Shown: positions 22,138 through 53,454 of the stretch, piece by piece
Numbering within the stretch: position 1 is the first letter of the stretch
Layout: every line of letters begins with the position of its first letter
DNA from: a virus
DNA length: 60,542 nucleotides
Direction: 5' to 3' (one strand)
Virus record (IMG/VR): IMGVR_UViG_3300050821_002162
Location: 1-60,542 of that record
Translations under genes and position numbers: made by a program
Notes under the pieces: generated by a model
The model's database searches: none
What the model saw: only the letters and a program-made list of their open reading frames with translations
Told to the model about the DNA's origin: nothing

Positions 22138-22659
22138 TCACGTTGGGAAGTTGAGACGCGCAAACTCGCCAAAGTATTTCAGCGCGGCAGCGTCATAGGC
22201 TCGTGCGGCTTCTTCCGCTGTATCGAAGTAGCCTTGATAAACTTTTTTCCCTTTAACGATAAGTTGTGCTCTCCAACGAGAGTTCCAGACAACACCCTTA
22301 TACCCGGAAGTATTGTGTTTTCTTTTCTCGCAGTTTGCTCCATTTTGAGAGACGGTGCAGATGCGAAGATTTTCTTTTCGGTTGTCCAGCGTGTTTCGAT
22401 TCTTATGATCGTGGCTCTCGCCATCCTGCATCACTTCATTGTGCATGGCTACAGTTTGCTTACGACCACCCTCTCGGGAGTCGCGATACGCATAAAAGGA
22501 CTTCGTGTATTTGTTCCAAACTGCGTACCAGTTCCACCGGACAAGGCGGTCGTACTCAGAGGAATTGACGATTGCGTCTTGACGTTGCGTGAGAGCGATA
22601 AGGCGGATAGACTGATCGAGCGGCTGGACAACGACGTGTCGTTTCACGTTGCGTTTCAT
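22138..22659 (-). CDS. HNH homing endonuclease with AP2 DNA-binding domain
   Basis: A 173-residue protein on the strand opposite its neighbours; ATG 22659 is preceded by AGGA. The HNH core reads MHNEVM...DHKNRNTLDNRKENLRI...NGANCEKRK. It is followed by a C-terminal AP2 domain (SGYKGVVWNSRWRAQL, GYFDTAEEAARAYDAAALKY). Known members are mobile, cutting intronless or uninserted alleles. It sits between capsid and connector genes, with a terminator from the other strand beside its 3' end. A second, related copy lies at 36930-37460. Confidence 0.9.
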   Translation of the reverse strand: MKRNVKRHVVVQPLDQSIRLIALTQRQDAIVNSSEYDRLVRWNWYAVWNKYTKSFYAYRDSREGGRKQTVAMHNEVMQDGESHDHKNRNTLDNRKENLRICTVSQNGANCEKRKHNTSGYKGVVWNSRWRAQLIVKGKKVYQGYFDTAEEAARAYDAAALKYFGEFARLNFPT

Positions 22660-22742
22660 AGTTCCTACCCTAATAGGAATTGTGCGGTCTGGCCGCACTT
22701 CTCCATCCTACCACAAGGGGGTGCCTTATTTCTTATATAAGT

Positions 22743-23790: not shown

Positions 23791-24162
23791 ATGTTCGCAG
23801 TGACGATTACCATTACCGACCGAACGCAGACGCCGCAAAATCTTTATACCCTCATCACAAAAGGTTCGCAGACAGGGTACACGGTCGCGCCTGCCGCTGG
23901 CATCGCTCCGTCGAACTTGACGCAATCGCAAACTGGATGCGTGTCTTACTTGTCCATTCAGGCGTCTTACAAGAATGGTGGGACCACCGTCTACAAGGGA
24001 GACGAGAACGTAAAGAATGACGGGAGCCGCCAAGCCAAAGAGTTGAACGCGGGAGACACGGACGTGCAACAAGCGTACTCGTACAGCACGAACCTGAACG
24101 AAATCTATCTCACTGCGAGCGCAAATGCCGCTGTCGTGAATGTGGAGTTTCACTACGCATGA
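23791..24162 (+). CDS. structural protein (123 aa)
   Basis: ATG 23791. A Thr/Asn-rich beta protein (FAVTITITDRTQTPQNLYTL, TDVQQAYSYSTNLNEIYLTA) ending VVNVEFHYA. Its stop overlaps the start of the first exported fibre gene (ATGA). Probably a virion component; specific role unknown. Confidence 0.6.
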   Translation: MFAVTITITDRTQTPQNLYTLITKGSQTGYTVAPAAGIAPSNLTQSQTGCVSYLSIQASYKNGGTTVYKGDENVKNDGSRQAKELNAGDTDVQQAYSYSTNLNEIYLTASANAAVVNVEFHYA

Positions 24163-25889
24163 AAACCATTTGGCTCGTGTCTGTGTTCCTGTTGCTGACA
24201 GCTAGCGCCTTCGCGCAGTTTGGCTCACACGATGTCTTGTACGTTGGGAGCGCTCCGTCTGGATCGTGCGTGGCCGGTTCCAGAATTCAGCAACTGACAA
24301 CCGGGGCTGGTACTACTTATAGCTGCCAAAGCATTGTTGCTGGCGTGGGAACGTGGACGGCGATTTCTGGTGGCGGTGGAGGAGGGAACGTCTCGACTGG
24401 ACAGACAAACGTCTACACTGGCGGATTTCTGCAAGACTTCTCGGCGGCAACGATGGAATTGCCAGAGGGTGCTGGGTTTGTGACAACGGTGGACAGTACG
24501 GTTGGGTTTGATACGACTACACAAATCCTCCACTTCTGGGGTCCAGGTGCGGCAGATTCCTTTAACGTCGTCACATCGAGCACGAGCACGACAGCCACAC
24601 AGCCGATTTTCGCCACAGCCACGGCTGGCTTGTACGCTCCGAGAGCCATTGCAGGAACTGATCTCCCGGCAGTCGCTGTTCAGACTGGTCAGACGAATGT
24701 CTATACCGCTGGCCTACAAGACTTCACGTCAGCGACGATGGAAATACCGGAAGGTGCGGGATTCACGACAAACGTAAACAGCACGATTGGTTTGGACACG
24801 ACGGCGAACATCACGCACTTGTGGACGAACAATGCCGACAGTTCGATATGCGCTGCGACGGCCACGGACACGACTACGACGCACGCCATGTTCGCAACAG
24901 CGGTAGCCGGGATCTGCAACACTCGCGCTATAGCAACCGGTGACTTGCCTACTTCCGGCATTTCTAACGTCGCCTATCTCAACGCCGGGAACACCTTCAC
25001 CGCAGCCGGGACACTGAATCTGACCTCGGCTTCGGCAACTGCCGGTCTAATTGTTCCGATTGCAGCAGGCGCGGCACCCATTGCGAATGGTGCGATTTCT
25101 TTCAATTCAACATCCAGTGCGTATGTAGGCGGCGCAGGAGGAGTCAGCACGTACAATTTCGCTCTTGCTGCTCTTAGTGGAACGAGTACGACCTGCACCA
25201 ACCAGTTCTTCACAGTCATCAGTGCCGCCGCCGCTCCAACCTGCACCACCCCAACCGCAGCAATGGTGACGAACGCCGTCTCTACTATCGCGGCGAACTC
25301 CGGCAACAGCGCGATGACGCTGGACATGAGTGCCTCTACAGGAGCGAATTCGTTCCGTGTCGAATCTAAATCTGGGGCCACGGCAACATCGAACGGGTCT
25401 ATTGATTACGATAGCGGACCTGGACTGATGCACCTTGCAACGAGTGCCGTGGATGCGACCGCCGTGACCTCTCCAGCATCCATCTCGCAAACTTCCCAGA
25501 CGGCTGCGATTTCAACAGCCACTCTTTGCACTGCCGCTCAATGTCCGAGAGTAAACGGACAGTATGAAGTTCATTGGGACTTCTGGGGAAGCGGTACGGC
25601 CTGTTCCAGCGTGACATCAGGGTCGGTCACATTTCTTCTCACATGGACCGACGCAAATGCCGTTACACATTCGGCAGTTGCTTTACAAATGATGGGTCAG
25701 ACGGGAGCCTCCACGACCGCAATGGGTGGAACGTTTCCCTTTCAAACTGCGCTGGCAAACGAATCGGCAAGCGGTGTATTTTCCTTCACTACTAACGGTA
25801 CGATCATTCAGTATGCGACCGGATACACAGCTTGTACAACAGGGACGGGTACCTACAATCTGACCGCCACAGTGGAGAGAAAACAGTGA
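24159..25889 (+). CDS. exported fibre-like protein with tandem 95-residue repeats
   Basis: A 576-residue protein opening with a textbook Sec signal peptide (MKTIWLVSVFLLLTASAFAQ, likely cut at AFA-Q). Residues ~80-172 and ~175-265 are tandem repeats of each other (TGQTNVYTxGxLQDF, EGAGFxTxVxST, ATAVAG..x.RAIA.GDLP). The rest is Thr/Ser/Ala/Gly-rich beta sequence typical of tail fibres, with four or more cysteines near the C-terminus. A signal peptide on a tail-region protein is unusual: it implies export to the periplasm or cell surface, not assembly in the cytoplasm alone. Confidence 0.75.
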   Translation: MKTIWLVSVFLLLTASAFAQFGSHDVLYVGSAPSGSCVAGSRIQQLTTGAGTTYSCQSIVAGVGTWTAISGGGGGGNVSTGQTNVYTGGFLQDFSAATMELPEGAGFVTTVDSTVGFDTTTQILHFWGPGAADSFNVVTSSTSTTATQPIFATATAGLYAPRAIAGTDLPAVAVQTGQTNVYTAGLQDFTSATMEIPEGAGFTTNVNSTIGLDTTANITHLWTNNADSSICAATATDTTTTHAMFATAVAGICNTRAIATGDLPTSGISNVAYLNAGNTFTAAGTLNLTSASATAGLIVPIAAGAAPIANGAISFNSTSSAYVGGAGGVSTYNFALAALSGTSTTCTNQFFTVISAAAAPTCTTPTAAMVTNAVSTIAANSGNSAMTLDMSASTGANSFRVESKSGATATSNGSIDYDSGPGLMHLATSAVDATAVTSPASISQTSQTAAISTATLCTAAQCPRVNGQYEVHWDFWGSGTACSSVTSGSVTFLLTWTDANAVTHSAVALQMMGQTGASTTAMGGTFPFQTALANESASGVFSFTTNGTIIQYATGYTACTTGTGTYNLTATVERKQ

Positions 25890-26026
25890 AAAATAACAAG
25901 TTATGGTTGGTAACTACATTCCTTTGCGTAGCGGTCATTATCGCGTCTGCTATCTCGGTATTTCAGGGACACGTTCACGCGGATGCCACTTCCTACGCTC
26001 TGGGCGCGGCGGTATCTGCACGCTGA
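25886..26026 (+). CDS. small single-pass membrane peptide (46 aa)
   Basis: GTG 25886 overlaps the previous stop (GTGA). MKNNKLWLV leads into a hydrophobic span (TTFLCVAVIIASAISVF) with a short polar tail. It could equally be a small membrane protein or a secretion-signal remnant. It sits inside the run of exported proteins. Confidence 0.5.
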   Translation: MKNNKLWLVTTFLCVAVIIASAISVFQGHVHADATSYALGAAVSAR

Positions 26027-26033
26027 CTTGGGA

Positions 26034-27428
26034 ATGAGAATATATTCGAAACTCGGATGCCTAACCTTTCTGCTTGCGATGGCAATCTCATCCCATGCTC
26101 AAATACCATGTTCTACGGTCACGCCCGTAACTCCAAACGTTGGGCTTAGTATTCCACCGTTCTTGACTCCGGGTGGTCCGAATTCTAATAATTGGAACGT
26201 TCTCTACAACACAAACTTCACGTGTTTGGATAGTTATTTGTCCGGTAACACTGGACTTCCAGCGCTAAAAATAAACGCATACGAGGACATTCTCGAAATC
26301 CCCACTCCGCGCAATCCTCTTCCTGGATACGAGCGCTGGTACGGCAACCTCTCGACGCACCAGTTGTCCTGCATTACATCGAGTGGAGCAGCGTGCGCTG
26401 CATTTGGCGGAACGGTCACGAGCGTTGGACTTCTCGGTACGGCGAATCAGATAGCCGTCTCTGGAACAAGTCCCATCACAAACTCTGGAACGTTTACGCT
26501 GACGCTCGACCCAGCGGGTGTTTATCTCCCTGCGGCAAGTCTCACCGTAAACGGTGGCCTCGACGTATCCCAGAATACACTCGGGCTACGAACCGACTGC
26601 GCGAACGGTCAAGCTCTACTATGGTCCACGAGCACGCTTACGTGGAACTGTACTACGGTAACGGTCAGTGGAGGAGCAAACACTGCGCTCTCGAATCTCG
26701 CAACGGTCGCCATAAACGCTTCTCTCATACCTGGGACAGATGACGCTTTCGACCTTGGTTCGCTGGGTTTTCGTTGGGACGATTTTTGGCTGACTGGAGT
26801 AATCGGATGGACCAACGGCAGCGGCACGGCAAACGTAGGCATTTCTTCCCCTAGCGCTGGCGTGATAAACGTCGGAAACGGATCACAGGGAGATGCGACT
26901 GGGACGATTCAGGCTGCAAAATTTGTCGGCACAGGGAGCAATGCAAGCATAGTCGGACTTGGGCAAGGTACAGCGCAAGCCGCGCTAGCCAACATCGGCG
27001 GCTGGATGGCTCCTACGACGGTCCCTACTGGTTATTGGATGGTCGTGCCGAGCGCTCCCGTCAGCGGGAATGGTCTTTTGCTTCTGTCTTCCACTACAAG
27101 CCAGACGGGATGCACGGCATCGGCAACGATTCTCTGTGGGAGTTTTATGACTCCCATAACAATCATTGCTTCTGGAACTGCTGCTCTTCCAAGCGGCTCT
27201 CCTATTACGTCTTCCAGTTGCGCTACAGCAGTAACGGTTTCAGCGAGTGGCGTAGTATCTACGGACAGCATTAAGTGGTCTTATAACGCCGCACCAACCA
27301 CAGTTCCAGGTATTTTAATTGTTAGTCCGTACGTAACCACGAACAACGTAAACTTCCTCTTATGTAACCCAAACTCCACTAATCAAACTCCTTCGGCCAC
27401 AACTATTAACTGGGAGGTTCTCAGGTGA
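26034..27428 (+). CDS. exported fibre-like protein with NWNV-type N-terminal domain
   Basis: ATG 26034; 464 residues. Signal peptide MRIYSKLGCLTFLLAMAISS ends at SHA-Q. The next ~60 residues (PNVGLSIPPFLTPGG..., NWNVLYNTNFTCLDSYLSG) match the N-terminal domain of the 34653 protein and a type seen at the start of phage tail fibres. The remainder is low-charge beta sequence with Gly/Ser/Thr repeats. Likely a fibre or adhesin delivered through the Sec pathway. Confidence 0.7.
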   Translation: MRIYSKLGCLTFLLAMAISSHAQIPCSTVTPVTPNVGLSIPPFLTPGGPNSNNWNVLYNTNFTCLDSYLSGNTGLPALKINAYEDILEIPTPRNPLPGYERWYGNLSTHQLSCITSSGAACAAFGGTVTSVGLLGTANQIAVSGTSPITNSGTFTLTLDPAGVYLPAASLTVNGGLDVSQNTLGLRTDCANGQALLWSTSTLTWNCTTVTVSGGANTALSNLATVAINASLIPGTDDAFDLGSLGFRWDDFWLTGVIGWTNGSGTANVGISSPSAGVINVGNGSQGDATGTIQAAKFVGTGSNASIVGLGQGTAQAALANIGGWMAPTTVPTGYWMVVPSAPVSGNGLLLLSSTTSQTGCTASATILCGSFMTPITIIASGTAALPSGSPITSSSCATAVTVSASGVVSTDSIKWSYNAAPTTVPGILIVSPYVTTNNVNFLLCNPNSTNQTPSATTINWEVLR

Positions 27429-30331
27429 AAAGTGGATTGTTTATTATGTGCGTGTTGGTCCTGACTAGCTTCGCACACGGACAAGCCTGCGGGCCTCCAG
27501 CGTATCCTTGCTTCCAGTCAGGGACGAACACGATAAACTATCCGGCAACGATGCCAAGTTTCGGATCGAACACTTGCAATTCGACCAACATTTACACGAT
27601 GGCACAGTGCGGCAATCTCATCGGCGCTAACACGACGGCGACTCCTGCCGATTTCCAGACTCAGATTGTCCGCGTCACGGATCAGGCAACAAACGGGAAT
27701 GCGAACACGCTTTGGCAAACCTACGACGAGCCTAGTGTGAACGCTTGGAACACGGACGACTCGGCTTTCCTCGCGACGGTCAATGGCGGAGGGCAGTACG
27801 TGTTCTTGTGGAACACTGCTGCAAACTCGCAATTCACTGGTCCTGCAAATACGAGCCAAGCTCTTTGCACTAGCGGCGTCCCTCCTTGCGCTGGCTTCGT
27901 TATTTTTCAGAACACTACTGTCATGTCGTGGGTTCACAGGGACCATGCGTGGAGCGTGGATAACCAGACTGGCCCTGGAATCTACATGCAGGACAACACG
28001 ATCACGCTGACGCAGGGGTCTGGAGGAGTAAGTACAGCCAACACATTCGACTGGACTAATTCACAGTGCTTGATGAACACGGTGAACGGCTATCCGAGCG
28101 ATGCCTCGGTTCACGCGACGATTAATTCGTGGACTACGAGCGGAACGACGGTCACTTTCAATACGACCTTGTTTAATAGTTTCGCGGTCGGCCAAACGAT
28201 TGCGCTTAGCGGGTTCGCTGGAGCGGGTACTAGCTTCAACGGTACTTCGATTACGGTCACTGCCGTTGTCGGGGGTTTACCTAACCAGACGGCATTCAAA
28301 GCGACTATCAACAGCGCTCCTGCGTCGAACACCGACACTGGGACTGGGACGGCAACAACTTATCCGCTCAACCGATGGACTGGGGCACTAGGCGTTACTC
28401 ACGATGAAACAACTTTTGCGATGCCATTTTCTATTTTGGGCAGTCAAGGCAGCGGCTACTATCAGGCTCGGTGGGTAGTTGGTCAGCCGGGATGCCGCCT
28501 CTGGAACACGATGACCGGCGTAGTCACGAACAACGGCGTACTTGTTGGCACGATTACAGACGCACCGTGGGGTGGAGCCTACGGAGGAAAATCCGACCGC
28601 TGGAAAATCCACGACTCAAACCAGCCAAATACGACTTTCACGGAATCTGCTCCGACGCAAAGCACGTTCGTCTATGGCTCTTATTACGTGGACGACTATT
28701 TCTGGGATGGAGGACTGAACGCAATTCCTTGTGGCACTGGAGCACCGAAGTGGCTAGCGAGTACCCACTACGACGACGGCGACCGCGTGGTTCCGTTGGT
28801 GAACAACGCTGGCGGCTATATGTATCAGATCATCAACACAATTCCCGGAACGAGCGGCACAAGCGTTGCAGCGTGGAACCAGACTCCTGGGAGCGATACG
28901 TCTGACAACGTTGGCACGAGTTCTCCTCTGACGTGGCGCAATACAGGAATCGGAGCAAACACTGGGGGGCAGTTCACAATCGCTTCTTGGTCGCTCACAA
29001 GCAACTCAGTGACCTTTACCGGAGTCTACCCCTGTCTTCTCGCAACCTGCCCGCAGTATGTCGCTGGCAACACTCCTACGATAAGCGGCCTAGTCCACGG
29101 TAGTTATTTGAACGGACTACAGACAGTGACCGCTGCTACGGCGACATCTTTTACGATTTCTTTTACCCACGCCAATGATTCCGCGACCGAGGTTGGAAAC
29201 GCGCAGGCGTATTTCACATACTCGTGCAACGGTCACAAATGGAAAGGCGCTCTCGGGGTAGCACTTGGCAAGAACTTCCAGTACGACTCTTATCTCAACC
29301 CGCAAGTTCCGAGATTGAATCTTGGGCCATCGGCCAGCTCCAAAGGCGATCAGCATCTCGGGAACACGAACAACAACACGACCGACACAGCATGGTTCTG
29401 GATTGCCGCGTCGAACGTTGGAACGAACGTCGATCTAGTGAATGGCGGGAGAACTTATTCTGGCACGGTGACGGCGAACGGGACCAAGAACGTCGTCTTG
29501 GCGTCTGGCTCGAACTTCGATACCAGCGGTTTCTGGAATGGGGATGCGATCACGATTAATGGCGTAGGGTACGTCGTGTCTTCGGTAACGGACGCAACCC
29601 ATCTTACGACAACGGCAAACGTTACAAGCGGCTCAGGGGTGAATTATTCACTTACCCAGACCAGTCTCCCAGGTGCTCTCTATGGTGAGAGTTTTTTCAT
29701 CGCTCCGCCATACTCTTCCCCTGGTGTGATAAATACGACGACCGTAAATCAGGTTCGCAGAGCGTTCCATTGCTTTAACAGTGGCTGGCCGTGGTCTTTT
29801 GATGCGAGATACTGTATTTCCGTCGTTTCGCAGACTGGCAAGTACGCTCTATTTGTCAGCGACATGTTTGGGCAACTAGGAAGCCGCCAGAATCAGGCAA
29901 GTTGCAATATCGGTGGGCCGGACTACGGAACCGAAGGTGGTGCTAATGACGGTGGTGCCAACAACTACGAAGTCGGAAGCGTCATCTTGCCTAATCTCGC
30001 GCAGAACAACGGCGGAAACTATATTTTCCAAGTGCTGAACTGCACGGCAAACGGCGGCAGTGGGTCAGCTTGCACGCTCGGAAACGTGCATCCCAAGTGG
30101 CCGCAGGGCGGAACGCCGTTTGGTCAGTCCAGCCCAACGACAATTGCAGAGAACTCTCCAGGAACGATCACGTGGGTGCTTTCGCCGGACGTAAACGATG
30201 TGACCAAGGCGGCTATTGCCAACTGCCGCGTGGACGATTTCGTCGCAATCTTGAGTCGAAGTGGAATAGGGAAGGCAAGTACGATCATTCAGGGGAACAC
30301 GATACTCAATGGAAACGTGGTGATTGAATGA
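27425..30331 (+). CDS. large exported beta-rich protein (968 aa)
   Basis: GTG 27425 overlaps the previous gene. Signal peptide [20 protein letters not shown]. The mature protein is Asn/Thr/Gly-rich, with many Trp and Cys and recurring blade-like segments ([38 protein letters not shown]) that suggest a beta-propeller. An inserted Ig-like part includes [17 protein letters not shown]. No catalytic motif seen. Probably a surface or receptor-binding protein. Confidence 0.65.
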
Positions 30332-30894
30332 AAAGACTTGGATTCTTGCTTTTACTGTCTTCGTTTGCTGGAGCGCAGTGTAGCGGTACAGCGCCGTCAA
30401 CTTGTCTTCCGCCGCTTGGAGTCGGAGGCGGAACGCAAACCGTGCAATCGTCCATCACGCTGATTGACAACGGACTTCCCAACCCTTTGCCTGCGACTGG
30501 TTACTATCATCTGTCGATTGCTGGCGGGGAAATTCAGGAATCGAACGATGGCGTTGCGTATCACAGTCTCGTTGGGGCGAAGGGAGCTACGGGCGCAACT
30601 GGCGCAACGGGTTCAACTGGTCCAGCGGGTCCGACCGGCTCTACCGGCGCTCAAGGTCCAGCGGGTGCAACGGGACCGACTGGAGCGACAGGCGCTCAAG
30701 GTTCGCAGGGGGTACAGGGAGTACAGGGACCAGCGGGAGCGCAAGGAGCAGTCGGCGCAACAGGCGCAACCGGCGCACGAGGTCCGCAAGGGGTTCCTGG
30801 CGTGATTGTTGGCAACACGATTACCGTGACCGAACTTTGTAATAACGTAAGTGGCAAGAGAACGTGTACTCTCAAGGTGTTGGCGATCCAATAG
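30328..30894 (+). CDS. exported collagen-like protein
   Basis: 188 residues, ATG 30328 overlapping the previous stop. Signal peptide [17 protein letters not shown], a ~65-residue beta head, then about 25 uninterrupted Gly-X-Y triplets (residues 83-157, e.g. [19 protein letters not shown]) and a short C-terminal domain with two cysteines ([19 protein letters not shown]). Collagen-like triple helices occur in phage fibres; with a signal peptide this one may be displayed on the host surface. Confidence 0.75.
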
Positions 30895-33118: not shown

Positions 33119-33694
33119 ATGCAGACACGAAGAGGTTTTATCCAGCGCATGTTTATGGCGCTTGGCGCGGTTGCAATCTCGGGGAGCACGTTGTTCCTGA
33201 CTGCTTGTGGGAACGTCGCAAACGATCTCGTGACGGCGTTCAATTCGATTTTGAACATTCTGTCGGCGGCTGGATTGGTTCCGGGTGGGGCGCTTGTTGT
33301 GACGGCACTCGAAGCTGTGCTTTCGGAAGTCACGGCTTACATAAACGCGCCTGCGGCAGACAAGACTTCCATCGGACAGGATTTATCGCTTGCAATTCAG
33401 CTTGCACAAGCGAGATTGCAGACATGGTTCACCGGCCTTGGCCTTACCGGGACACTGGCTGTGGTCATCGAGAGCTTAGTCAGCGTTCTTTTGAGCACGC
33501 TGGCTGGATTCTTGCCGCCGCTGCCTGTTCCTGTGACGCTGAGTAAAGAGATCAAGGAATCGCGAGACACTATCGTGTACAGGCCAGTAGCGGTTATCCA
33601 CTGTACCAAGAGTGGACTGAGAGCAGCGTCGAAGCAATTCCAGTCCAGTTTCAACTCGGTGCTGACAGCAAAGGGATACCAAAAAGTATTCTAG
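33119..33694 (+). CDS. Tat-type lipoprotein (191 aa)
   Basis: The N-terminus MQTRRGFIQRMFMALGAVA carries a twin-arginine motif (TRRGFIQ) and a lipobox LTAC with Cys30. The mature part is Ala/Leu-rich helical (ALEAVLSEVTAYINAPAADK) with a Pro-rich patch (FLPPLPVPVTLSKEI) and a basic end. A lipidated protein next to the endolysin could be an outer-membrane spanin or a superinfection-exclusion protein. Tat targeting, if real, would be exceptional for either. Confidence 0.65.
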   Translation: MQTRRGFIQRMFMALGAVAISGSTLFLTACGNVANDLVTAFNSILNILSAAGLVPGGALVVTALEAVLSEVTAYINAPAADKTSIGQDLSLAIQLAQARLQTWFTGLGLTGTLAVVIESLVSVLLSTLAGFLPPLPVPVTLSKEIKESRDTIVYRPVAVIHCTKSGLRAASKQFQSSFNSVLTAKGYQKVF

Positions 33695-34652: not shown

Positions 34653-35576
34653 ATGAAATACCTAGTGTTTTTAGTTTTGGTGGCCGCCGCCTTCGCGCAG
34701 ACCACACCGAACATCGGCTTGAATATTCCAAACTTCAACACGCCGACATGGAATGTTCCGCTCAACCAGAACTTCACACTGCTCGACAGTATGCTTTCCG
34801 GTGGGACGGCGATACCTAGACTAAAGATTGAAGGCACAGGGCAGGGTGCCATACCAACCCAGCAGCCCTTCGAAGTTCACAATACTTCTTTTTCCGCAGT
34901 GGGTCTTTTTTCTCATAATGTTGCCTCCTATAATAGTCCAGACTTGGTATTCGCCAAGTCTGGAGGCTCAGAAACGTCACCGGCCTTGATAGCGCTCGGT
35001 AGTTATTTAGGGTACGTAGATTTCTACGGATACGACGGAACGACTTACGCCAAGGGAGCACAAATAAACGCACAGGTCGGCAGCGTAAGTTGGTCGCCCA
35101 CGGTACACAGCACTAATCTCAGCTTTCAAACTACTGCGGCAGGAGGGACTGGTCCGACCGAAGTGTTTCGCATGGGATCGAATACCGATAACGGCGGCGA
35201 CATAAATGTGAATTCTTCCCACTTAGATTTCTCCTTGCCGCTAACTAAGTGTTTCCTCTGGGCTTCGACGGACGGTTTTAGTGGTCTTCCTGATATAAGT
35301 GTTTGCCGTATCGCCGCTTCAACCCTCGCCATTGGCAACGGGACGGACGGCGATAAGACTGGTTCATTGGCTGTCGCCGTAATTGTTCCGGGAATCATTT
35401 ATAGCGCGGCGGGCACAGCATTGCCTTCGTGTGGCAGTAGCATCAAAGGCGCTCGGGCGGTTGTGAGCGATGCAACCTCGCCAACCTACATGGGGACTTA
35501 CACAAGCGGTGGCGGGATTACCGTGGGTGTCATTTGCAGTTTCAACGGTAGCACGTATTCTTGGCTGACTCACTAA
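34653..35576 (+). CDS. exported fibre-like protein with NWNV-type N-terminal domain
   Basis: ATG 34653 (GTG 34647 also possible, overlapping the previous stop). A ~307-residue protein with signal peptide MKYLVFLVLVAAAFAQ, then NIGLNIPNFNTPTWNVPLNQ and NFTLLDSMLSGGTAIPRLK, the same N-terminal domain as the 26034 protein. A beta-rich low-charge body follows. Likely the second fibre or adhesin of this exported set. Confidence 0.75.
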   Translation: MKYLVFLVLVAAAFAQTTPNIGLNIPNFNTPTWNVPLNQNFTLLDSMLSGGTAIPRLKIEGTGQGAIPTQQPFEVHNTSFSAVGLFSHNVASYNSPDLVFAKSGGSETSPALIALGSYLGYVDFYGYDGTTYAKGAQINAQVGSVSWSPTVHSTNLSFQTTAAGGTGPTEVFRMGSNTDNGGDINVNSSHLDFSLPLTKCFLWASTDGFSGLPDISVCRIAASTLAIGNGTDGDKTGSLAVAVIVPGIIYSAAGTALPSCGSSIKGARAVVSDATSPTYMGTYTSGGGITVGVICSFNGSTYSWLTH

Positions 35577-35583
35577 ATGCCCG

Positions 35584-36942
35584 ATGGCCACTCAATTCCA
35601 GTGGATCACGTACGCCGCAGCCCGTAGCCTTCTCGCTGGACGACTAGCGGACCCCTCTAAAACATTCTGGACAGACGCTGAAATTGGGATTTATTTGCAG
35701 GAAGCGCTGAGAACTTGGAACGCTCTCACAGAGCAGTGGAATGCCAATTTCTCTTTCCTGACAAGCGGAGGTGGAGGGTACGGTGTCGGAGGATATGGAC
35801 AAGGCGGGTACGGTAGCGGCGGTGGTGCCGTTACATGGTATGACATCTCGCAATTATCAAATTCTCCTCGCGCCCGAACTCTGCACGACTCTGATCTTTA
35901 CACGATCATGGAGTACCACCTTCTTGAGCCGCCAACCGGAGCAATGTGGACTGGGACAAGCCAGTTCTCAATAGCCGATCTCCAAGGCGCGTTGCAACGA
36001 CGCCGAGACGAAGTGATTCAGGTGGCGGGATGCAATCTCGCACAATTACCACCGCTAGCTTCCACCTACAACCAGCGCAGAACGTTTTTCCCTGACTCAA
36101 CTTTAGAGCCAATGAGAATGAGATTTGTCCCCGACTCGACGGCAGGCCCGATCACGCTTTGTCGGGAAGACACGCTCCAGTTTGATGCCTTCGAGCCGGG
36201 ATACCTCCAGAGTCCAGCTTTGCCTTCGTCTTGGAGCGTCATTACCGAACCCCCGCTCGCTTTCGACGTGGACACCGCTCCAGGCGTGACAGGGAACTAC
36301 GATGTAATTTCTCTACAGGCTGGTCCGACCTTTCAGCCTCCTTTTGCTACGCTTTTGGGGATTCCGGACGATTTCGCGTGGGTTGCCAAAATGGGAGCGC
36401 TTTCGGACTTGCTCGGTAGGGAGTCGGAAGCGACTGACAGGCTGCGAGCGGACTATTACGCACAGCGATACGCGGACGGTTTGAAGCTGATAAAAGAGAG
36501 CAACTGGCTCGTCTCGGCCACCATAAACGGATTGCCCTGCGACACACCTTCCCTGAAAGATTTTGATGCTTTCTCGCCGGAATGGGAGCTTAACGCAGCC
36601 GCGTGGAGCACTTTGGTGCAGGCTGGAGTCGATTTCGTAGCTCCGTGCCCCGTAGGGATCGTCTCTAGCGTCGGAATGGTGCTTGTAGGCAATGCTCCCA
36701 TCCCGGTTCTCGACTCCGATTACGTTCAAGTCAGCCGGGATGTGTGGGACGCAGTGCTCTCGTATGCTCAGTTCCTAGCGGTCCAAAAAATGGGGGGTGC
36801 TGAGTTCACGAGCGCGATGGAACTAGAAAAACAGTTCTTCGAGGCGGCTAAGGCTACCAATAAACGCCTCGCCAATATGGGGATTTTCTCGGATGTTGTA
36901 CATAGTGTTGGTAAAAAGCAGGACGTGAGTCAACCAAGATGA
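35584..36942 (+). CDS. virion structural protein (452 aa), tail or adaptor
   Basis: 452 residues starting MATQFQWITYAAARSLLAGR. It has an N-terminal helical part (WTDAEIGIYLQEALRTWNAL), a Gly/Tyr-rich loop (GGYGVGGYGQGGYGSGGG) and a C-terminal region with helices (DAVLSYAQFLAVQKMGGAEF). This shape (DNA-contacting adaptor with 'W..A.R' N-terminus) fits a tail or adsorption complex protein. The 3' end overlaps the convergent HNH gene by 13 nt. Confidence 0.65.
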   Translation: MATQFQWITYAAARSLLAGRLADPSKTFWTDAEIGIYLQEALRTWNALTEQWNANFSFLTSGGGGYGVGGYGQGGYGSGGGAVTWYDISQLSNSPRARTLHDSDLYTIMEYHLLEPPTGAMWTGTSQFSIADLQGALQRRRDEVIQVAGCNLAQLPPLASTYNQRRTFFPDSTLEPMRMRFVPDSTAGPITLCREDTLQFDAFEPGYLQSPALPSSWSVITEPPLAFDVDTAPGVTGNYDVISLQAGPTFQPPFATLLGIPDDFAWVAKMGALSDLLGRESEATDRLRADYYAQRYADGLKLIKESNWLVSATINGLPCDTPSLKDFDAFSPEWELNAAAWSTLVQAGVDFVAPCPVGIVSSVGMVLVGNAPIPVLDSDYVQVSRDVWDAVLSYAQFLAVQKMGGAEFTSAMELEKQFFEAAKATNKRLANMGIFSDVVHSVGKKQDVSQPR

Positions 36943-37460
36943 GCGAAGTCTCCACAGTTCCGTTTGGCTGCATCACAAAACGCTATATAGGCGGCTTCTG
37001 GGGTATCGAAATAGCCAATGGTGATTTCCTTTTTGTTGACCTGTATTCTTGCTTTCCATTTGTTGCGTGTACGATCAAACGTCACACCTTTGTAACCAGA
37101 CAGGTTGTCTTTTCGTTTTTTGGCGTTCCACTGATTTTGCGACTGCGATGCTGGTCGCAAGTTCTCACGTCGATTATCAAGAGTATCGTGATTCCAGTGA
37201 TCGGCTTGACGTGGATCGTCACGACTCAAACCGAGAACCTCGCGACTCATAAAAATGGTGAATCTTTTACCTTTTTCATCTGGCGCACTGTTTCGCGCTG
37301 CGTAGAACGATTGGGTGTGTTCTCGCCATTTCGCATACCACTTCCACTGATTGAGCCACTTGTAGCGAGTGGCATCGACCTTGGTAACTTGGCCTTGTGT
37401 CAGCGGGATTTCGCGGTAGGATGGATTCGAGGGTTGAGGTTCCTGCTCAAACAGGTTCAT
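36930..37460 (-). CDS. HNH homing endonuclease with AP2 domain (second copy)
   Basis: 176 residues from ATG 37460, preceded by GAGG. HNH core MSREVLGL...DHWNHDTLDNRRENLRPAS...NQWNAKKRK and an AP2 domain SGYKGVTFDRTRNKWKARI, GYFDTPEAAYIAFCDAAKR. Same domain order and orientation as the copy at 22138-22659. It is opposite to its neighbours and lies between two structural genes, as expected for a mobile endonuclease. Confidence 0.9.
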   Translation of the reverse strand: MNLFEQEPQPSNPSYREIPLTQGQVTKVDATRYKWLNQWKWYAKWREHTQSFYAARNSAPDEKGKRFTIFMSREVLGLSRDDPRQADHWNHDTLDNRRENLRPASQSQNQWNAKKRKDNLSGYKGVTFDRTRNKWKARIQVNKKEITIGYFDTPEAAYIAFCDAAKRNCGDFAHLG

Positions 37461-37505
37461 GCGGTGCCTCCCGAAAGGCATTGCAACTCAACCCCATTTT
37501 AACAT

Positions 37506-40346
37506 ATGGCGAAGGACTATCCACGCAACAAGGGCGGCGAACGTTTGGGGATGCACGGAATGGACCTCGTGAATCCTCCCGATGGCTTGCGTCCGGGTAA
37601 GCTAGCATACGCGCAGAACGTTCGTGCCTACGTTGGAGAACGAACTTCGACGCGAGCGATGGAAGATTCCTCGGTGATGACTCTTGGTTCTTCCGTCCAT
37701 TCGCTTCGCCGGTTGAACGATCTCACGCCTGCCGGACCAGCGTTGGGATATGTCCTGATCGGAGGTGCGGCGGGGATTCTTTATGCCAATGGCGTGCAAG
37801 TCGCTCACGGATTGAGCGGCAATCCCCTGTCGCTGATTCCTTTCCGACCAGCGGCAAGCGTTCAACCGTGGATGTACGTCGGAGACTCGCAAGTTGGCGG
37901 CGTCTTCACCGATTCGTCTCTCGGCAGTTCATTGGTCCCGAACGGGATGCTGAAAGTGCGTTCGGACGGACTGTGCTACGCGATGGGCATAGCTGAGCCA
38001 CAAGCAGCGCCAACAATCACTTCGATTCCAGTCCCGTCCGCAAGCGCAATCTCTTTGTTGGGTCCAGTCACGATGTCCTACTGGAGCAATCTTGGTACAG
38101 GTTCTGCTCCAGCACAATTCATCTGGAAAAATGTCAGCGATCCGAGTGCGAGCGGTCCTGCACTGACAGCGATTCCTCCGATTGGAACGAATACCGGAAA
38201 TTCGCTCTTGTTAAACGCCGCTGGAGACTCTGGCGTAAATCCTATTGCGTGGACGCAATACCAGACCTACAACGGCACGGTCAACACCGACATAATCGGC
38301 GGCACGTTCAACGTTCACTGGGTAAACGGCAATCAGTTTGGCGGCTTGGCTCCAGGTGGAAGCATTGTTATCGGAACGACGCTTTACACGATTGCAACGG
38401 TCCCATCGAATACTTTGCTGACCCTGACAGCGACAGCAGGGACACAAAACAACGTTGCCTACGAAGCAGTCGCTAATCTCGGGACTGTGCCCCTGTTTAC
38501 GCCAGCGCCAGGTGGCGGCGGCTATCAGAACTTCAGGTGCGCTTTTACCGGAACGTTCTACGTGCCAGCGGCGGGGAACTATACGCTCGTTGCTCATTTC
38601 AAAGACGACATCATTTGGGGCATCGGGAACAGTCCAAACGGCAACGTGACTCTTGTCAGTTACACAGGTGGGTCTTACTTTGGGCAGAACGCTTTCGCCG
38701 GTCAGACCAAGACAGCGTTGCAGGGCTACCCTCTACTTCCTAGAAATCCAGACGAGTTCGACACAGGAAATGGTTTTGGTGGTTCCAACACGTTCGGTGG
38801 ATCAAACGTAGTTCTGAACTTCTCGCAAGCAGGAAACTATCCCTTCGAGATTGACTGGGACTTCTGGTATCACTTCTTCGCACAACTTACGCTGAAGTGC
38901 AACGGCCAAGATATTCTCCCGGTTTCGGCAGCGGTCATCACGGAAGCTCAGTACCGCTACACTTACCGTTCGTCCAAGACGGGAGCAACATCCAACCCGT
39001 CTCCCGCCTCGATGGAGCAAACTCTGTCCGTGTTGGCGAACACCGTTACGGCCACTCCATCTACCGACCCGCAGGTGGACAAGATCGACTGGTACAGGCT
39101 CGATACTGGGCTGCAAAACTTTACTTACGTAGGAACAGGGCCGAATACGACACTTCCGTTCTCCGACATTTTGCTCGACACGGCAGTCGCAGCGAATCCG
39201 ATTCTACAGTTCGACAACTTCCAGCCGTTCCCGTCGATTGATCTGCCTCGCGGTGGAACGGTAAACGTGACAGGTGGAGTGGTGACGTGGGTTTCTGGAG
39301 ATAAGTTCAATCCGCGATGGCTTCCGGGTACGATCATCATCATCGGGACTGTTCCTTTTACGCTCGACAAGCGCCCAACGTCTACGCTTCAGTTGACGGC
39401 CAGCAACGTCACTGTCACAGGCGGGATCGAGACTATCGTTGTTCCCGCAGACGGGACAAACTTAGTCTACGAAATAGACGAACCGGACCTTGCGGCACAG
39501 CCGTTGCCCTACTTGTTTGGCCCAACCGACAACATCAATTTCATTTTCGGCGTAGGTGATCTTCTGCGTCCGGGGACACTCTATTGGTGCAAGGGCAATA
39601 ACCTAGACTCTGCACCGGATACTAACCAAATGGACGTTACGAGTCCATCGGAAGTTCTAGTCAATGGTGCGATGAGCGGTGGACGTGGCATCTTGTTCTC
39701 GACGGAGCGGGCGTGGCTTATCATGCCGAACTTCTTCAACGCTCTTGCGACTGTTCAAGGGACGGTTGGTTCGACATGGACCTTGCAGGAATCGAGCATT
39801 GACCGTGGCCTTTATATTCCAAGAGCACTCGCAATGGAAGCGAGCGGAAACATCTTTTTCCGCGTAAAAGACGGCATTCATTTGTCTCCGGGTGGTGCGG
39901 TTTCCAAGTCGATCACCGACGAAGATATTTACAATGTGTTCCCACACGAAGGCGTGATTGCAGAACCTGTGACTCGTGGCGCGTACACCGTTTGGCCTCC
40001 AGACGACACGAAGCCGCAGTATCAAAGCATGGAGTGCGCGAACGGCTATCTGTACTATGACTATCTCGACATCAACGGCTTCTACCGAACTCTGGTCTAC
40101 GACATCCAAGGGAAGGGATGGGTGGTGGACGCCTATCAGTATCCAGCGCGGATTCATCGCCTCGAAGAAGGCGGAAACGTGAACGGAACGCTTATCGGAT
40201 GTTCGGACGGATCGGTGCGGCCTCTCGTCGATTCGGGCGTAGAGCAGGCGTGCGCGATTGTGCTGACGCGATGTGAGATTGCAGGAGACGTGAGAGCACT
40301 TAAAAACTTCGGAGATTTATACATTGAAGGTGAGAGTTTGAGCTAA
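37506..40346 (+). CDS. large tail/adsorption protein with PA14-like insert (946 aa)
   Basis: 946 residues. The N-terminus (MHGMDLVNPPDGLRPGKLAY, AQNVRAYVGE) matches the start of podovirus-type tail-complex proteins that list and stabilise the portal vertex. A middle segment resembles PA14/lectin beta-sandwiches (GTFYVPAAGNYTLVAHFKDD, NYPFEIDWDFWYHFFAQLTL). The C-terminal half is blade-like (GRGILFSTERAWLIMPNFFN, IFFRVKDGIHLSPGGAV). Probably part of the tail tube or needle complex with a carbohydrate-binding insert. Confidence 0.65.
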   Translation: MAKDYPRNKGGERLGMHGMDLVNPPDGLRPGKLAYAQNVRAYVGERTSTRAMEDSSVMTLGSSVHSLRRLNDLTPAGPALGYVLIGGAAGILYANGVQVAHGLSGNPLSLIPFRPAASVQPWMYVGDSQVGGVFTDSSLGSSLVPNGMLKVRSDGLCYAMGIAEPQAAPTITSIPVPSASAISLLGPVTMSYWSNLGTGSAPAQFIWKNVSDPSASGPALTAIPPIGTNTGNSLLLNAAGDSGVNPIAWTQYQTYNGTVNTDIIGGTFNVHWVNGNQFGGLAPGGSIVIGTTLYTIATVPSNTLLTLTATAGTQNNVAYEAVANLGTVPLFTPAPGGGGYQNFRCAFTGTFYVPAAGNYTLVAHFKDDIIWGIGNSPNGNVTLVSYTGGSYFGQNAFAGQTKTALQGYPLLPRNPDEFDTGNGFGGSNTFGGSNVVLNFSQAGNYPFEIDWDFWYHFFAQLTLKCNGQDILPVSAAVITEAQYRYTYRSSKTGATSNPSPASMEQTLSVLANTVTATPSTDPQVDKIDWYRLDTGLQNFTYVGTGPNTTLPFSDILLDTAVAANPILQFDNFQPFPSIDLPRGGTVNVTGGVVTWVSGDKFNPRWLPGTIIIIGTVPFTLDKRPTSTLQLTASNVTVTGGIETIVVPADGTNLVYEIDEPDLAAQPLPYLFGPTDNINFIFGVGDLLRPGTLYWCKGNNLDSAPDTNQMDVTSPSEVLVNGAMSGGRGILFSTERAWLIMPNFFNALATVQGTVGSTWTLQESSIDRGLYIPRALAMEASGNIFFRVKDGIHLSPGGAVSKSITDEDIYNVFPHEGVIAEPVTRGAYTVWPPDDTKPQYQSMECANGYLYYDYLDINGFYRTLVYDIQGKGWVVDAYQYPARIHRLEEGGNVNGTLIGCSDGSVRPLVDSGVEQACAIVLTRCEIAGDVRALKNFGDLYIEGESLS

Positions 40347-40347
40347 C

Positions 40348-42246
40348 ATGCCAGCCGCTTTAGTCATCAACGGAACTGATCCAGTTAAACACCAAGGGAG
40401 CTACGGTGTTGCTGCCGATCTCGGTTTGGGTGCTACCACAACTACGGCGGTAGGTCATTTCTTACACGACACCGTAACCGGACACGTACTAATATGTGCC
40501 GTTAATTATTACGTTTATGCGAACAAAGGAACAACGATAGTAGGAACGGCTTTCATACCGTCTATAGTCGCGCCAACAACCCCTGGTTTTTCTTGGATAT
40601 TGGCTGGTGTGATAACCAGCGATACGCAGACCGTGACTGACCTCAATGCCAGCGGGGGTAGTGGGACGTTTTGTAACGTCACCGCTATTTACTTCATTCT
40701 TAATGCCCCTGTGATGGCTAGTTCTGTCAACACGACTGTGGTTTTTAATTTCACTGGCACTCTTGGTTCACCACAACAGGATGGGTCCGCCTACGGTGGT
40801 TTTGAATTAACTGAATGGAGCGGGATTCCTGCAACTGATGTTGCTACGGTTGTAACTAACAAAGGAATAAACGCAACTGTCGATGCTGGCACTATAACGC
40901 CACCAGCCAGTGCTATTGATTTACTGATTGTCGCAGGGAGCATTATTACTCCAGACGCGAATGGTTCTACAAGTACGAGCGTAGGTCCGGGATACACAGG
41001 GTTAGATAATCTGGTAAATTCCAACACTCCGGGTTCGGGTTTTGTGACCTCGGTTGGGCAACTTGGAACGCAATACCAACTCAACCTACCTATTGGATCG
41101 TATGCGACGGCATTTAGCGCGGCAGTAGACGGTCCCTCTCCAGATCCGGCGAATCCAGCGATCCAGCCTTGGTCGGTAGTCGCTGTAGCATTTAGTCCTT
41201 CCGGTGGAGGCGGAACTACCCCGATCTTACTTGTGTCGCCGCTAAGTCTGGTGTTCTCCGCTATTCAATTCGGTGCTAATCCAGCATCGCAAAACGTTGC
41301 TATTTCAAACGGAGATGGCGGGGTTTTGAACTGGGTCTTGAACTCGGATTCCGCTTGGCTTACCCCTGTTCCCGCAAGCGGGACGGGAAACGGAACGGTC
41401 GTGGCAAACGTAAATATCGCTGGACTTGCGCCGGGAACATATACGGGACACCTGACGGTGAGCGCGGCAAGCGCTACTGGGTCGCCGCAGATTGTGCTTG
41501 TCACGCTGAACATTTTGACAAGTACCGGTGGCGGAGGTGGCGGCGGAGGTGGTGGCGGAGGTGGCGGCGGAGGTGGTGGCGGAGGAGGCGGCGGAGGAGG
41601 CGGCGGAGGAGGTGGAGGGGGGGGTGGTGGCGGGATAACGACGTGCATCCCGAACTACGCGAGTGGTGTGTTCGTTCCCGACTTGTCGCTCTACATTCAG
41701 CCGACAACGGCGCTCCACTCAATTCCTGTGCCGACTGGTTCGATTGCTGCAAACGAAACGAGCGTGCAAGGCCGCAACGCGGTTATCCTCGATTTTAATA
41801 ACAGCGAAGGTCTCTCCGCACGCGACTTGGGAGTAGTGTTTACGTGGCCGGTTGGTAATGGCACTGTTTTGGATTTGTGGCAACCGACGATCATCCCAGA
41901 GCAGGATGACCTCTACAACCGATTCAGTTACCACTTTCTAGTCAACGCCTTGGGTTTGACAGGATACGGCCATATTCGGGAGTTGAACATCGCGCACAAC
42001 GCCACTGCACCGATCACGCTTTTGCTGATATTCGATCAGCGTCCGAACATCAGCATTACGATACCTGCCTCAAGTGGTGGAGCAGTGAAAGTAAAAGTTT
42101 CGGTCCCGCCGCAGAAATTCAAAATGGTGGAAGGATTCTTGTCTTCATCGCAACCGTTCATGCTCTGGGGGGAGTCATGCGAACTTAAGCTCGGGCAGTG
42201 GGGAAGGAGTGACGGTTACAAAGTTTTGAAGCCGTTCAGTGGATGA
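40348..42246 (+). CDS. tail protein with BACON/Ig domain and 36-Gly linker
   Basis: 632 residues. Residues 1-~275 are a beta domain; ~295-390 is a BACON-like Ig domain (SPLSLVFSAIQFGANPASQN, SDSAWLTPVPASGTGNGT, AGLAPGTYTGHLTVSAASA). Next come exactly 36 consecutive glycines (Gly394-Gly429, bases 41527-41634) and a C-terminal virion domain (~430-632, ending FMLWGESCELKLGQWGRSDG). The polyglycine would act as a flexible tether between an adhesin part and the virion part. BACON domains often bind glycans or mucins. Confidence 0.75.
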   Translation: MPAALVINGTDPVKHQGSYGVAADLGLGATTTTAVGHFLHDTVTGHVLICAVNYYVYANKGTTIVGTAFIPSIVAPTTPGFSWILAGVITSDTQTVTDLNASGGSGTFCNVTAIYFILNAPVMASSVNTTVVFNFTGTLGSPQQDGSAYGGFELTEWSGIPATDVATVVTNKGINATVDAGTITPPASAIDLLIVAGSIITPDANGSTSTSVGPGYTGLDNLVNSNTPGSGFVTSVGQLGTQYQLNLPIGSYATAFSAAVDGPSPDPANPAIQPWSVVAVAFSPSGGGGTTPILLVSPLSLVFSAIQFGANPASQNVAISNGDGGVLNWVLNSDSAWLTPVPASGTGNGTVVANVNIAGLAPGTYTGHLTVSAASATGSPQIVLVTLNILTSTGGGGGGGGGGGGGGGGGGGGGGGGGGGGGGGGGGGGITTCIPNYASGVFVPDLSLYIQPTTALHSIPVPTGSIAANETSVQGRNAVILDFNNSEGLSARDLGVVFTWPVGNGTVLDLWQPTIIPEQDDLYNRFSYHFLVNALGLTGYGHIRELNIAHNATAPITLLLIFDQRPNISITIPASSGGAVKVKVSVPPQKFKMVEGFLSSSQPFMLWGESCELKLGQWGRSDGYKVLKPFSG

Positions 42247-52009: not shown

Positions 52010-52297
52010 TCAATCTCCTGCCTGAATTTGGTGGCGGCATACGTATGGCAATCTTCCGAGAAACGCTTCCACTTTCTCGGTGTTAATCGCGTATACAGGC
52101 CAAACAAGGTCAGTGCCGCATGTCCAATGGGCATCTGGCTCAGTCGGCGGACCTACTAGGAAGAAAGCAGGATTGTCAGCGGACGGCTGTTTCTGCCCAA
52201 TACCTGACGGGTGAGTCCCAGCATGGCTATGATTCTTCGGCCAAGGACAAGTCGCCATGACGCGAATCAATTGCGGCTGTGCTCTATCCCCGGTCAT
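52010..52297 (-). CDS. hypothetical protein (95 aa)
   Basis: ATG 52297 overlaps the phospholipase stop (ATGA). The sequence includes CPWPKNHSHAGTHPSGIGQK, PDAHWTCGTDLVWPVYAINT and KVEAFLGRLPYVCRH; Cys/His spacing could bind metal. Family not known. Confidence 0.6.
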   Translation of the reverse strand: MTGDRAQPQLIRVMATCPWPKNHSHAGTHPSGIGQKQPSADNPAFFLVGPPTEPDAHWTCGTDLVWPVYAINTEKVEAFLGRLPYVCRHQIQAGD

Positions 52298-53454
52298 TGG
52301 AACTCTCCGCTCATGCTCGCCGCGTTGCAGTCCCGCGCATTCAAGCAACCGAGCGCGAACTGGTCTTCGGCAAACTTCAGGATGCTGCCGAAGTCGTAAA
52401 CCGTATGGTCAACCGATCCCGGCGCGGTCAGCAGCGGGCTATTGACCCATGCTGCCACCCTGATCCCGTCCCCGAACTTGTCCACGCTCGGCGGCGGTAC
52501 GTGGTCGTAGTACCCGCCCCAATCGTCGTAGACCACGATCACGACCGTGCTCGCCCACTCGGGACTGGCTTGCAAGGCGTTCACGTTCGCCATGATCCAC
52601 GCCTCGTTGTCGTGCATGGAAGCCATCGGATGACCGGACGCTTTGAACGGCGGTATCAGGTACGTTATCTGTGCAAGCGTGCCCGCCGCCACGTCTGCCG
52701 GGAAGCTGTCGATGTCGTGCATGTTCGTCTGCCAGTCGGCCCCGTAACGCAGGTGGTAAACGTAGTCCCATCCGACCCAAGTGAACCCTTCGTCCTCGCC
52801 TTCGAGCGGCGTGTAGGCTGCCCACGTCACGCCAGCAGCGTCGGCTAAGTCGGAGATCGTTTGCACTGGTGCGGTATGCCCTGCTCGTATGTCGCAGGGA
52901 AACTGTTTGGTGATGACTCCGGTAACTGCGTCCATGTTTCGTGCCGTGGTCGTCGCCGGTGCGCTACATCCCCAGACGTGAGAGTTTGTCGGGTTGTCGA
53001 TGAAGTCCGCAGTCTGGGCCGCGATTATGAACCAGTGACTCGTGAACGATGGTCCGGCAATTGGAGCGAACATGTGATCGAGCACAACGCCGGACTGTGC
53101 CAAGCTCCACAGTTGCGGGATGTCCGACTGCCAGAGCTGCACGTAAGCCTGATTAACGCCATTGATTGTTGGGCAGAACGCAGCAAAGCCGTCCATCTTG
53201 CCGGCGTCGATGTCGTGATGAGCGTCTGACCAAGTGTGGCCGCAGTTTGCCAGTGGCGGATCGGTTGAATGCGCGAGGTTGACCGCGACGCCGTTCTTCA
53301 TGTGGCCCATCAACGCGCCCTCCGCGCCAGGATAAGTTCCGAACACGTGATCGAACGATCGGTTTTCAGGCACGATGATTACAACGTGTTGGACGCCGGG
53401 AATCTGCGCCAACATAGAAACGCTCAGTGCAAGTACGGCGAGTAAAGTTTTCAT
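52294..53454 (-). CDS. secreted phospholipase C/acid phosphatase-type phosphoesterase
   Basis: 386 residues from ATG 53454, overlapping the RecT stop. Signal peptide MKTLLAVLALSVSMLAQ. All landmarks of the PLC/AcpA phosphoesterase family (PF04185 type) are present: HVVIIVPENRSFDHVFGTYP (23-42), IAGPSFTSHWF (132-142, nucleophile region), VVYDDWGGYYDHVPPP (307-322), FGDGIRVAAWVNSP (327-340) and YDFGSILKFAE. It hydrolyses phosphate esters outside the cytoplasm. It is coupled by overlaps to recombination genes, an unusual cargo for a phage early operon; possibly phosphate scavenging, host membrane or lysogen fitness. Confidence 0.85.
   Translation of the reverse strand: MKTLLAVLALSVSMLAQIPGVQHVVIIVPENRSFDHVFGTYPGAEGALMGHMKNGVAVNLAHSTDPPLANCGHTWSDAHHDIDAGKMDGFAAFCPTINGVNQAYVQLWQSDIPQLWSLAQSGVVLDHMFAPIAGPSFTSHWFIIAAQTADFIDNPTNSHVWGCSAPATTTARNMDAVTGVITKQFPCDIRAGHTAPVQTISDLADAAGVTWAAYTPLEGEDEGFTWVGWDYVYHLRYGADWQTNMHDIDSFPADVAAGTLAQITYLIPPFKASGHPMASMHDNEAWIMANVNALQASPEWASTVVIVVYDDWGGYYDHVPPPSVDKFGDGIRVAAWVNSPLLTAPGSVDHTVYDFGSILKFAEDQFALGCLNARDCNAASMSGEFQ

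Follow-up and report, generated by a model that had tools for sequence, protein, structure and literature searches.

The tail fibers and spikes of the phage lineage analyzed here (receptor-binding or receptor-processing proteins) are probably made as pre-proteins that the host Sec system exports, that mature in the periplasm, and that attach to virions at lysis. The sequences give good support to export and oxidation, since we found in them conserved signals for Sec and signal peptidase I, a Q that is almost always exposed by cleavage, tail-type N domains in the mature proteins, and paired cysteines; we infer that the mature fibers and spikes are then incorporated into virions. On balance, we lean toward the broader view that at least three unrelated lineages of Acidobacteriota tailed phages finish their tails outside the cytoplasm, with fibers and spikes that would be exported, disulfide bonded, held in the periplasm, and added only at lysis. 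The analyzed DNA (the window), a virus record of 60,542 bases from IMG/VR, represents the podovirus-like genome of a soil phage.

To call signal peptides, we used a rule of our own in place of SignalP. It scores a positive n-region, a hydrophobic core free of charges, and small residues at −3 and −1, and it was run on all 348 open reading frames (ORFs) of at least 60 aa in six frames, with all starts. An earlier note on this DNA had described clean signal peptides on the products of the genes starting at 24159, 26034, 27425, 30328, and 34653. All were present, and exactly these five headed the scan, with scores of 11.28 to 13.63; non-gene frames scored up to 11.1, and 34653 had the highest score in the window. 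Each of the five proteins has an n-h-c signal with small residues at −3 and −1 and Q at +1, whereas signal-less synthesis in the cytoplasm is usual, although not defining, for tail fibers and spikes. The pattern extends beyond position 30,894, where the noted run had ended, to 34653 and past this genome.

All five genes lie on the + strand. Predicted exported fiber-like protein 1 (24159 to 25889, 576 aa) has its signal peptide at 24159 to 24215 (MKTIWLVSVFLLLTASAFA, followed by Q), and its mature part starts with QFGSHD and contains 10 Cys. Its N domain (about 24216 to 24368, with two invariant Cys) is lineage specific and is common to the first signal-peptide gene of relatives L060, L006, L007, L062, and L078. 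Fiber-like protein 2 (26034 to 27428, 464 aa; signal peptide at 26034 to 26099, MRIYSKLGCLTFLLAMAISSHA followed by Q) and fiber-like protein 5 (34653 to 35576, 307 aa; signal peptide at 34653 to 34697, MKYLVFLVLVAAAFA followed by Q) carry tail fiber N domains at about 26103 to 26273 (..NVGLSIPPF..NWNVLYNTNFTCLDSYL..) and about 34698 to 34835 (NIGLNIPNF..TWNVPLNQNFTLLDSML), respectively. Residues 93 to 181 of 34653 also match the tail fiber family PHROG 9942 (E 3e-8), and the C-terminal part of 26034 is 57% identical to a protein of L028; in searches of phages, neither this part nor the C-terminal part of 24159 had a match. Predicted exported protein 3 (27425 to 30331, 968 aa; signal peptide at 27425 to 27481) begins with a GTG that overlaps the previous stop, has 18 Cys in its mature part, and has no recognized domain. 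It is 49% identical to L028:5946-8189, with an identical 11-residue motif, and had no other homologue in viral contigs, in the capsid relatives searched, or in GenBank phage or plasmid records. Predicted exported protein 4 (30328 to 30894; signal peptide at 30328 to 30375) carries Gly-X-Y repeats, and the collagen-like body that had been noted was borne out by a match to PF01391 (E 7e-14) and by matches to PHROG collagen-like tail fiber and minor tail families; at 188 aa, it is the one member of the noted run of four "long" proteins that is short. The tail fiber N domains claimed for the run were recovered with an N-domain HMM in 26034 and 34653 and were not detected in 27425; 24159 has a different N domain. 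A recognized virion-attachment N domain was found for none of 24159, 27425, and 30328. AlphaFold structure predictions of 26034 and 27425 were discarded (pLDDT 35 and 27).

The five genes are located in the structural module. A portal-like gene at 15911 (PHROG 156, E 5e-4) and a capsid gene at 19822, named from homology to the major head protein of the Tunturi phages, are followed by neck-type genes, and the signal-peptide genes lie between these and the tail genes at 35584 to 40346; the tail-type genes of the window are mostly without PHROG matches. The start codons of three signal-peptide genes (24159, 27425, and 30328) overlap the stop codon of the preceding gene (ATGA or GTGA), an arrangement like that expected in a coupled late operon. 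Signal-peptide genes occupy a comparable position in relatives.

Other features of the window were observed. Two ORFs that resemble each other and look like genes for HNH/AP2-type homing endonucleases (22138 to 22698 and 36930 to 37481, both on the − strand) lie antisense at gene junctions of the structural module. Between 24159 and 26034, a short ORF (25886 to 26026, +) with a hydrophobic segment (KNNKLWLVTTFLCVAVIIASAISVFQ) perhaps encodes a small membrane protein. In the structural/lysis region, the ORF at 33119 to 33694 (+) starts with MQTRRGFIQRMFMALGAVAISGSTLFLTAC followed by G, which resembles a Tat-type (RRGF) lipoprotein precursor and may be a further exported product. A Gly-rich 12/24-base repeat (41527 to 41627, +) within the ORF at 40348 to 42246 may mark a signal-less fiber or hinge protein. 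Outside the tail module, a phosphoesterase-family protein (52294 to 53472, −; PF04185, E 7e-55) has its own signal peptide (MKTLLAVLALSVSMLA, followed by Q) and is a predicted exported auxiliary enzyme. The two contig ends (1 to 130 and 60426 to 60542) fall within one 12/36-base tandem repeat (CCGCAGCCCCCG); a circular genome broken inside this repeat is therefore probable.

Next, uncultured relatives were examined. A capsid search of IMG/VR returned 26 loci, or 32 with a profile, and every relative with enough sequence encodes at least one signal-peptide protein, usually of 400 to 2400 aa and mostly with cleavage between A and Q; the signal peptides of some relatives (L075 and L076) are near or below the rule threshold and were called by eye. 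In close relatives (81 to 94% capsid identity) with long enough contigs, between one and five signal-peptide proteins of up to 2408 aa are encoded in succession after the neck-type genes, and in more distant relatives (41 to 51% capsid identity) the signal-peptide genes either occupy that place or close the structural module. L031/L074 showed no signal-peptide protein, but its contig ends before the expected place. The bodies of these proteins are hypervariable and differ almost completely among relatives. They include a pectate-lyase-like spike domain (PF12708, Pect-lyase_RHGA_epim; PHROG tail spike families), a GDSL esterase, and a beta-helix; depolymerase or esterase folds are usual in spike bodies. 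One relative, L030, with a capsid 93% identical to that of the window, is a contig of a single-cell genome (L030 and L104, CAJEYI010000005.1). A host assignment through this genome was rejected; its 16S and size look, in our reading, Patescibacteria-like, and GC contents of 55 to 57% versus 46.5% also suggest that the phage was co-sorted and was not infecting the cell.

The N domains of the mature proteins were then compared with those of known virion proteins. Many members of the lineage have, after the signal peptide, a domain of about 100 residues (QT..C..G..SGL.STN..GVIP.CTVTVYLTGT..ATIY.D..G.PL.NPFTA..G...FYA..GYD). This head-binding-like domain occurs among GenBank phages in tail spikes and fibers of Serratia, Escherichia, Klebsiella, and Pseudomonas phages (best tblastn value, 9e-5), which an HMM of the Acidobacteria-phage copies finds at 2e-12 to 5e-8; no match was found in plasmids. 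These spikes, such as the Serratia phage Spe5P4 tail spike and the Alux-21 head-binding-domain protein, share the N domain (..ATVTVYLTGT..ATG..NPF.A...G...FYAPDG.YD..) and a variable enzymatic body. However, they start at the domain and have no signal (in all six of the Proteobacteria-phage proteins examined, the matched part begins at about residue 14), whereas in the Acidobacteria-phage versions a Sec signal and an inserted N-terminal segment are present, mostly together with a Cys pair. As 26034 and 34653 do, the signal-peptide genes of close relatives L030, L004, and L008 encode a tail-type N domain; in these relatives, the head-binding-like-domain HMM places it directly behind the signal peptide.

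The N domain of 26034 and 34653 is of a second type (LTKPEVG..DTWG..LNT..D.ID). It is common to L003 and to gp13 of Tunturi_1 and Tunturi_2, is matched at lower significance in Tunturi_5 gp337 (E 0.005), and is homologous to the signal-less Tunturi_4 gp112 (HMM E 3e-6). The same domain is found in the tail fibers gp19 of Sinorhizobium phage phiM5 and gp45 of Ochrobactrum phage vB_OspP_OH, which, unlike 26034 and 34653, have no signal peptide and zero or one Cys. The link to phiM5 gp19 is moderate (HMM E 0.008 within a set of a few thousand ORFs; hhalign profile-profile probability, 91%), and the sequence record of that protein states "detected in phage particle proteome." Collagen-like phage tail proteins (PHROG 6320, 1806, and others) have Gly-X-Y repeats as 30328 does; 30328 adds a signal peptide.

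Searching IMG/VR with a profile of the head-binding-like domain identified 64 loci, and in 60 of them (53 by rule and 7 by eye: L117, L143, L151, L153, L155, L159, and L161) a signal peptide immediately precedes the domain. Three of the remaining loci (L168, L170, and L171) are of a short signal-less type. The fourth, L139:4001-4297, is the sole Acidobacteria-type copy of the domain with no signal peptide, and the conserved Cys pair is also absent from it (NYS and PNA versus GYC and PSC). Signal-peptide proteins that lack both Cys of the pair occur in L068, L070, L120, L123, L125, L140, and L144; L068 and L070 have a different Cys pair further on (TICVY..SSCF), which hints at a moved disulfide.

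The only GenBank phages that match the window capsid are Tunturi_1 and Tunturi_2 (27.5% identity), which are podoviruses of Tunturiibacter psychrotolerans (Demina et al. 2025, PMC11924767). From these distant cultured relatives, we infer that the window phage infects Acidobacteriota. Four of the five cultured Acidobacteriota phages (Tunturi_1, 2, 4, and 5) have signal peptides on annotated tail fibers or spikes, of the same kind as those in the window. The Tunturi_1 proteins that bear them are gp12, gp13, gp16, the "tail spike" gp14, and the "virion structural protein" gp17; among the Tunturi_2 counterparts, gp13 is annotated as tail fiber, gp14 as pectin lyase, and gp17 as virion structural protein. 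In the siphovirus Tunturi_4, the "tail protein" gp113 and the "virion structural protein" gp114 carry them, and the "tail fiber" gp111 does so only if its start is moved upstream; in the jumbo myovirus Tunturi_5, they occur on the "tail fiber" proteins gp337, gp341, and gp342 and on the "virion structural" protein gp338. The podovirus Tunturi_3 offered no convincing case, since its single borderline tail-gene match (score, 10.0) needs a start 140 codons downstream. Because Tunturi 3, 4, and 5 are unrelated to one another and to Tunturi_1/2 (PMC11924767), the trait is present in three unrelated phage types of one host phylum. The words signal peptide, mass spectrometry, and SDS-PAGE are absent from the main text of that report (PMC11924767). 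No signal-less structural protein of Tunturi_1 significantly resembles a tail spike, yet the phage forms plaques; a spike role for its signal-peptide proteins is thus suggested by elimination, an argument weakened by the poor family coverage of these proteins.

Whether the signal peptides are used is addressed by the cysteines. Even numbers of Cys would be predicted for proteins whose disulfides form in an oxidizing compartment. In signal-peptide fiber proteins with complete ends, clustered by similarity, 63 clusters contain Cys, and the mature count is even in 58 of them and odd in the other 5 (p = 8e-13, for related sequences whose dependence clustering lessens but does not remove); a first set of 38 had given 35 even and 3 odd. 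Signal-less structural proteins of the same phages have 28 even and 34 odd counts. This parity argues that the signal peptides are used. It replaced the percentage of Cys, which is weak evidence of oxidation because signal-less tail spikes also reach about 2%.

Q stands at +1 of a plausible cleavage site in 51 of 59 signal-peptide proteins, compared with 42 of 266 signal-less proteins by chance. A "Q-rule" with pyroglutamate formation has been described for Bacteroidetes in a text from which Acidobacteria are absent (PMC5837995). Q occupies +1 in 15 of the 25 signal peptides predicted on the Granulicella tundricola plasmid pACIX901 (L046 and L053 to L055), which suggests, in a small sample of one plasmid with a simple predictor, that Acidobacteriota follow a similar rule. 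The phage signals thus seem to conform to the export habit of the host phylum, and the mature fibers would probably bear an N-terminal pyroglutamate. Under our signal-peptide rule, the long structural proteins of T7, crAss001 (first 50 kb), FCL-2, and B124-14 yielded no calls. With Tunturi_3 added to these controls, 1 of 96 long proteins received a weak call; in the comparison set, 49 of 246 were called (Fisher p = 6e-7, with the control entered as 1 versus 95). Bacteroidetes phages with Q-rule hosts were considered as a second case of the trait and rejected, as no long tail protein of crAss001 (first 50 kb), FCL-2, or B124-14 has a signal peptide.

A path for tail completion can be proposed from these data. 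The pre-proteins would be translocated by Sec into the periplasm, where the signal would be removed, exposing an N-terminal Q that probably forms pyroglutamate. Disulfides would form and the chains would trimerize in the periplasm, and virions in the cytoplasm would remain fiber-less until lysis. When lysis opens the inner membrane, the mature fibers would dock on the tails of DNA-filled particles. Post-lysis docking has a precedent in P22, whose spikes can reportedly attach to finished particles outside the cell (Israel, Anderson and Levine, 1967, on P22 morphogenesis in vitro from heads and base-plate parts; cited in PMC3741392). The literature searched, in which subscription journals are poorly covered, contained no description of tail fibers with signal peptides in tailed phages.

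The earlier note had offered a phage-encoded surface layer or adhesin, or assembly in the periplasm, as explanations for exported tail-region proteins. Export is well supported beyond the window, because signal peptides are kept across the lineage and in unrelated Acidobacteriota phages despite hypervariable bodies, and because the mature cysteines are paired; of the options offered, periplasmic assembly appears to be the best supported. A surface layer or adhesin is less likely, because the mature N domains match virion spikes and fibers and the genes lie in tail modules of plaque-forming phages; the genes are coupled within the module and lineage-wide, and are not separate or sporadic as morons would be. 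More generally, the exported proteins could be non-virion parts built from tail-protein domains (secreted or surface enzymes, adhesins, or a coat) that serve receptor destruction before lysis, biofilm release, or a superinfection block. We regard this as rather unlikely, although signal peptides, paired cysteines, and the host-like CHB_HEX_C_1 and Big_2 domains in some bodies fit secreted proteins. Porphyromonas phages are also reported to encode five Q-rule proteins of unknown function that were proposed to modify the host surface (PMC10367356). Those proteins resemble the ones described here in their glutamine-exposing signal peptides, matched to host export habits, but they belong to Bacteroidetes phages and were not identified as tail fibers or spikes. 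Against a non-virion role stand the N-domain matches to known virion spikes and fibers, the coupling to neck genes within tail modules, and the plaques formed by Tunturi_1 with no significant signal-less spike candidate.

A dual use, in which one exported pool supplies virions and also, ahead of lysis, removes or blocks receptors from the periplasmic or outer face, seems improbable. Up to five different exported proteins in a row per phage, perhaps exceeding the needs of one tail, and the depolymerase or esterase bodies are consistent with it, but no outer membrane export step was seen. It is very unlikely that the hydrophobic N termini serve not for export but as virion anchors or as leaders cut by a phage protease during cytoplasmic assembly, as is thought for Porphyromonas phage capsid proteins whose predicted signal peptides would be cut by the prohead protease (PMC10367356). 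The canonical n-h-c structure with A-Q sites like those of host exported proteins, the even Cys parity, homologous fibers elsewhere that do without such a segment, and L139, which lacks both the signal peptide and the conserved Cys, all argue for export instead. That the signals are functionless relics of recently captured host secreted genes, as host-like signal peptides with Q at +1 might suggest, is the least credible reading, given that they are lineage-wide and occur in three unrelated cultured phage types, that the hydrophobic core of the 27425 signal has diverged from that of L028 but remains hydrophobic, and that the head-binding-like domain has no plasmid match.

Assembly of exported fibers and spikes onto virions at lysis could be tested directly, since cultured phage-host pairs exist in the Tunturi phages. 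If true, it would break the working rule that virion parts of tailed phages are produced and assembled in the cytoplasm; absent signal peptides have even been counted toward a phage origin of diversified proteins (PMC6199706). Infectivity would be completed at lysis, and host Sec, signal peptidase, and disulfide enzymes would be phage assembly factors. The receptor-binding proteins of phages of a dominant soil phylum could then be misread as host secreted proteins in metagenomes, and Caudoviricetes assembly would have an extracytoplasmic branch.
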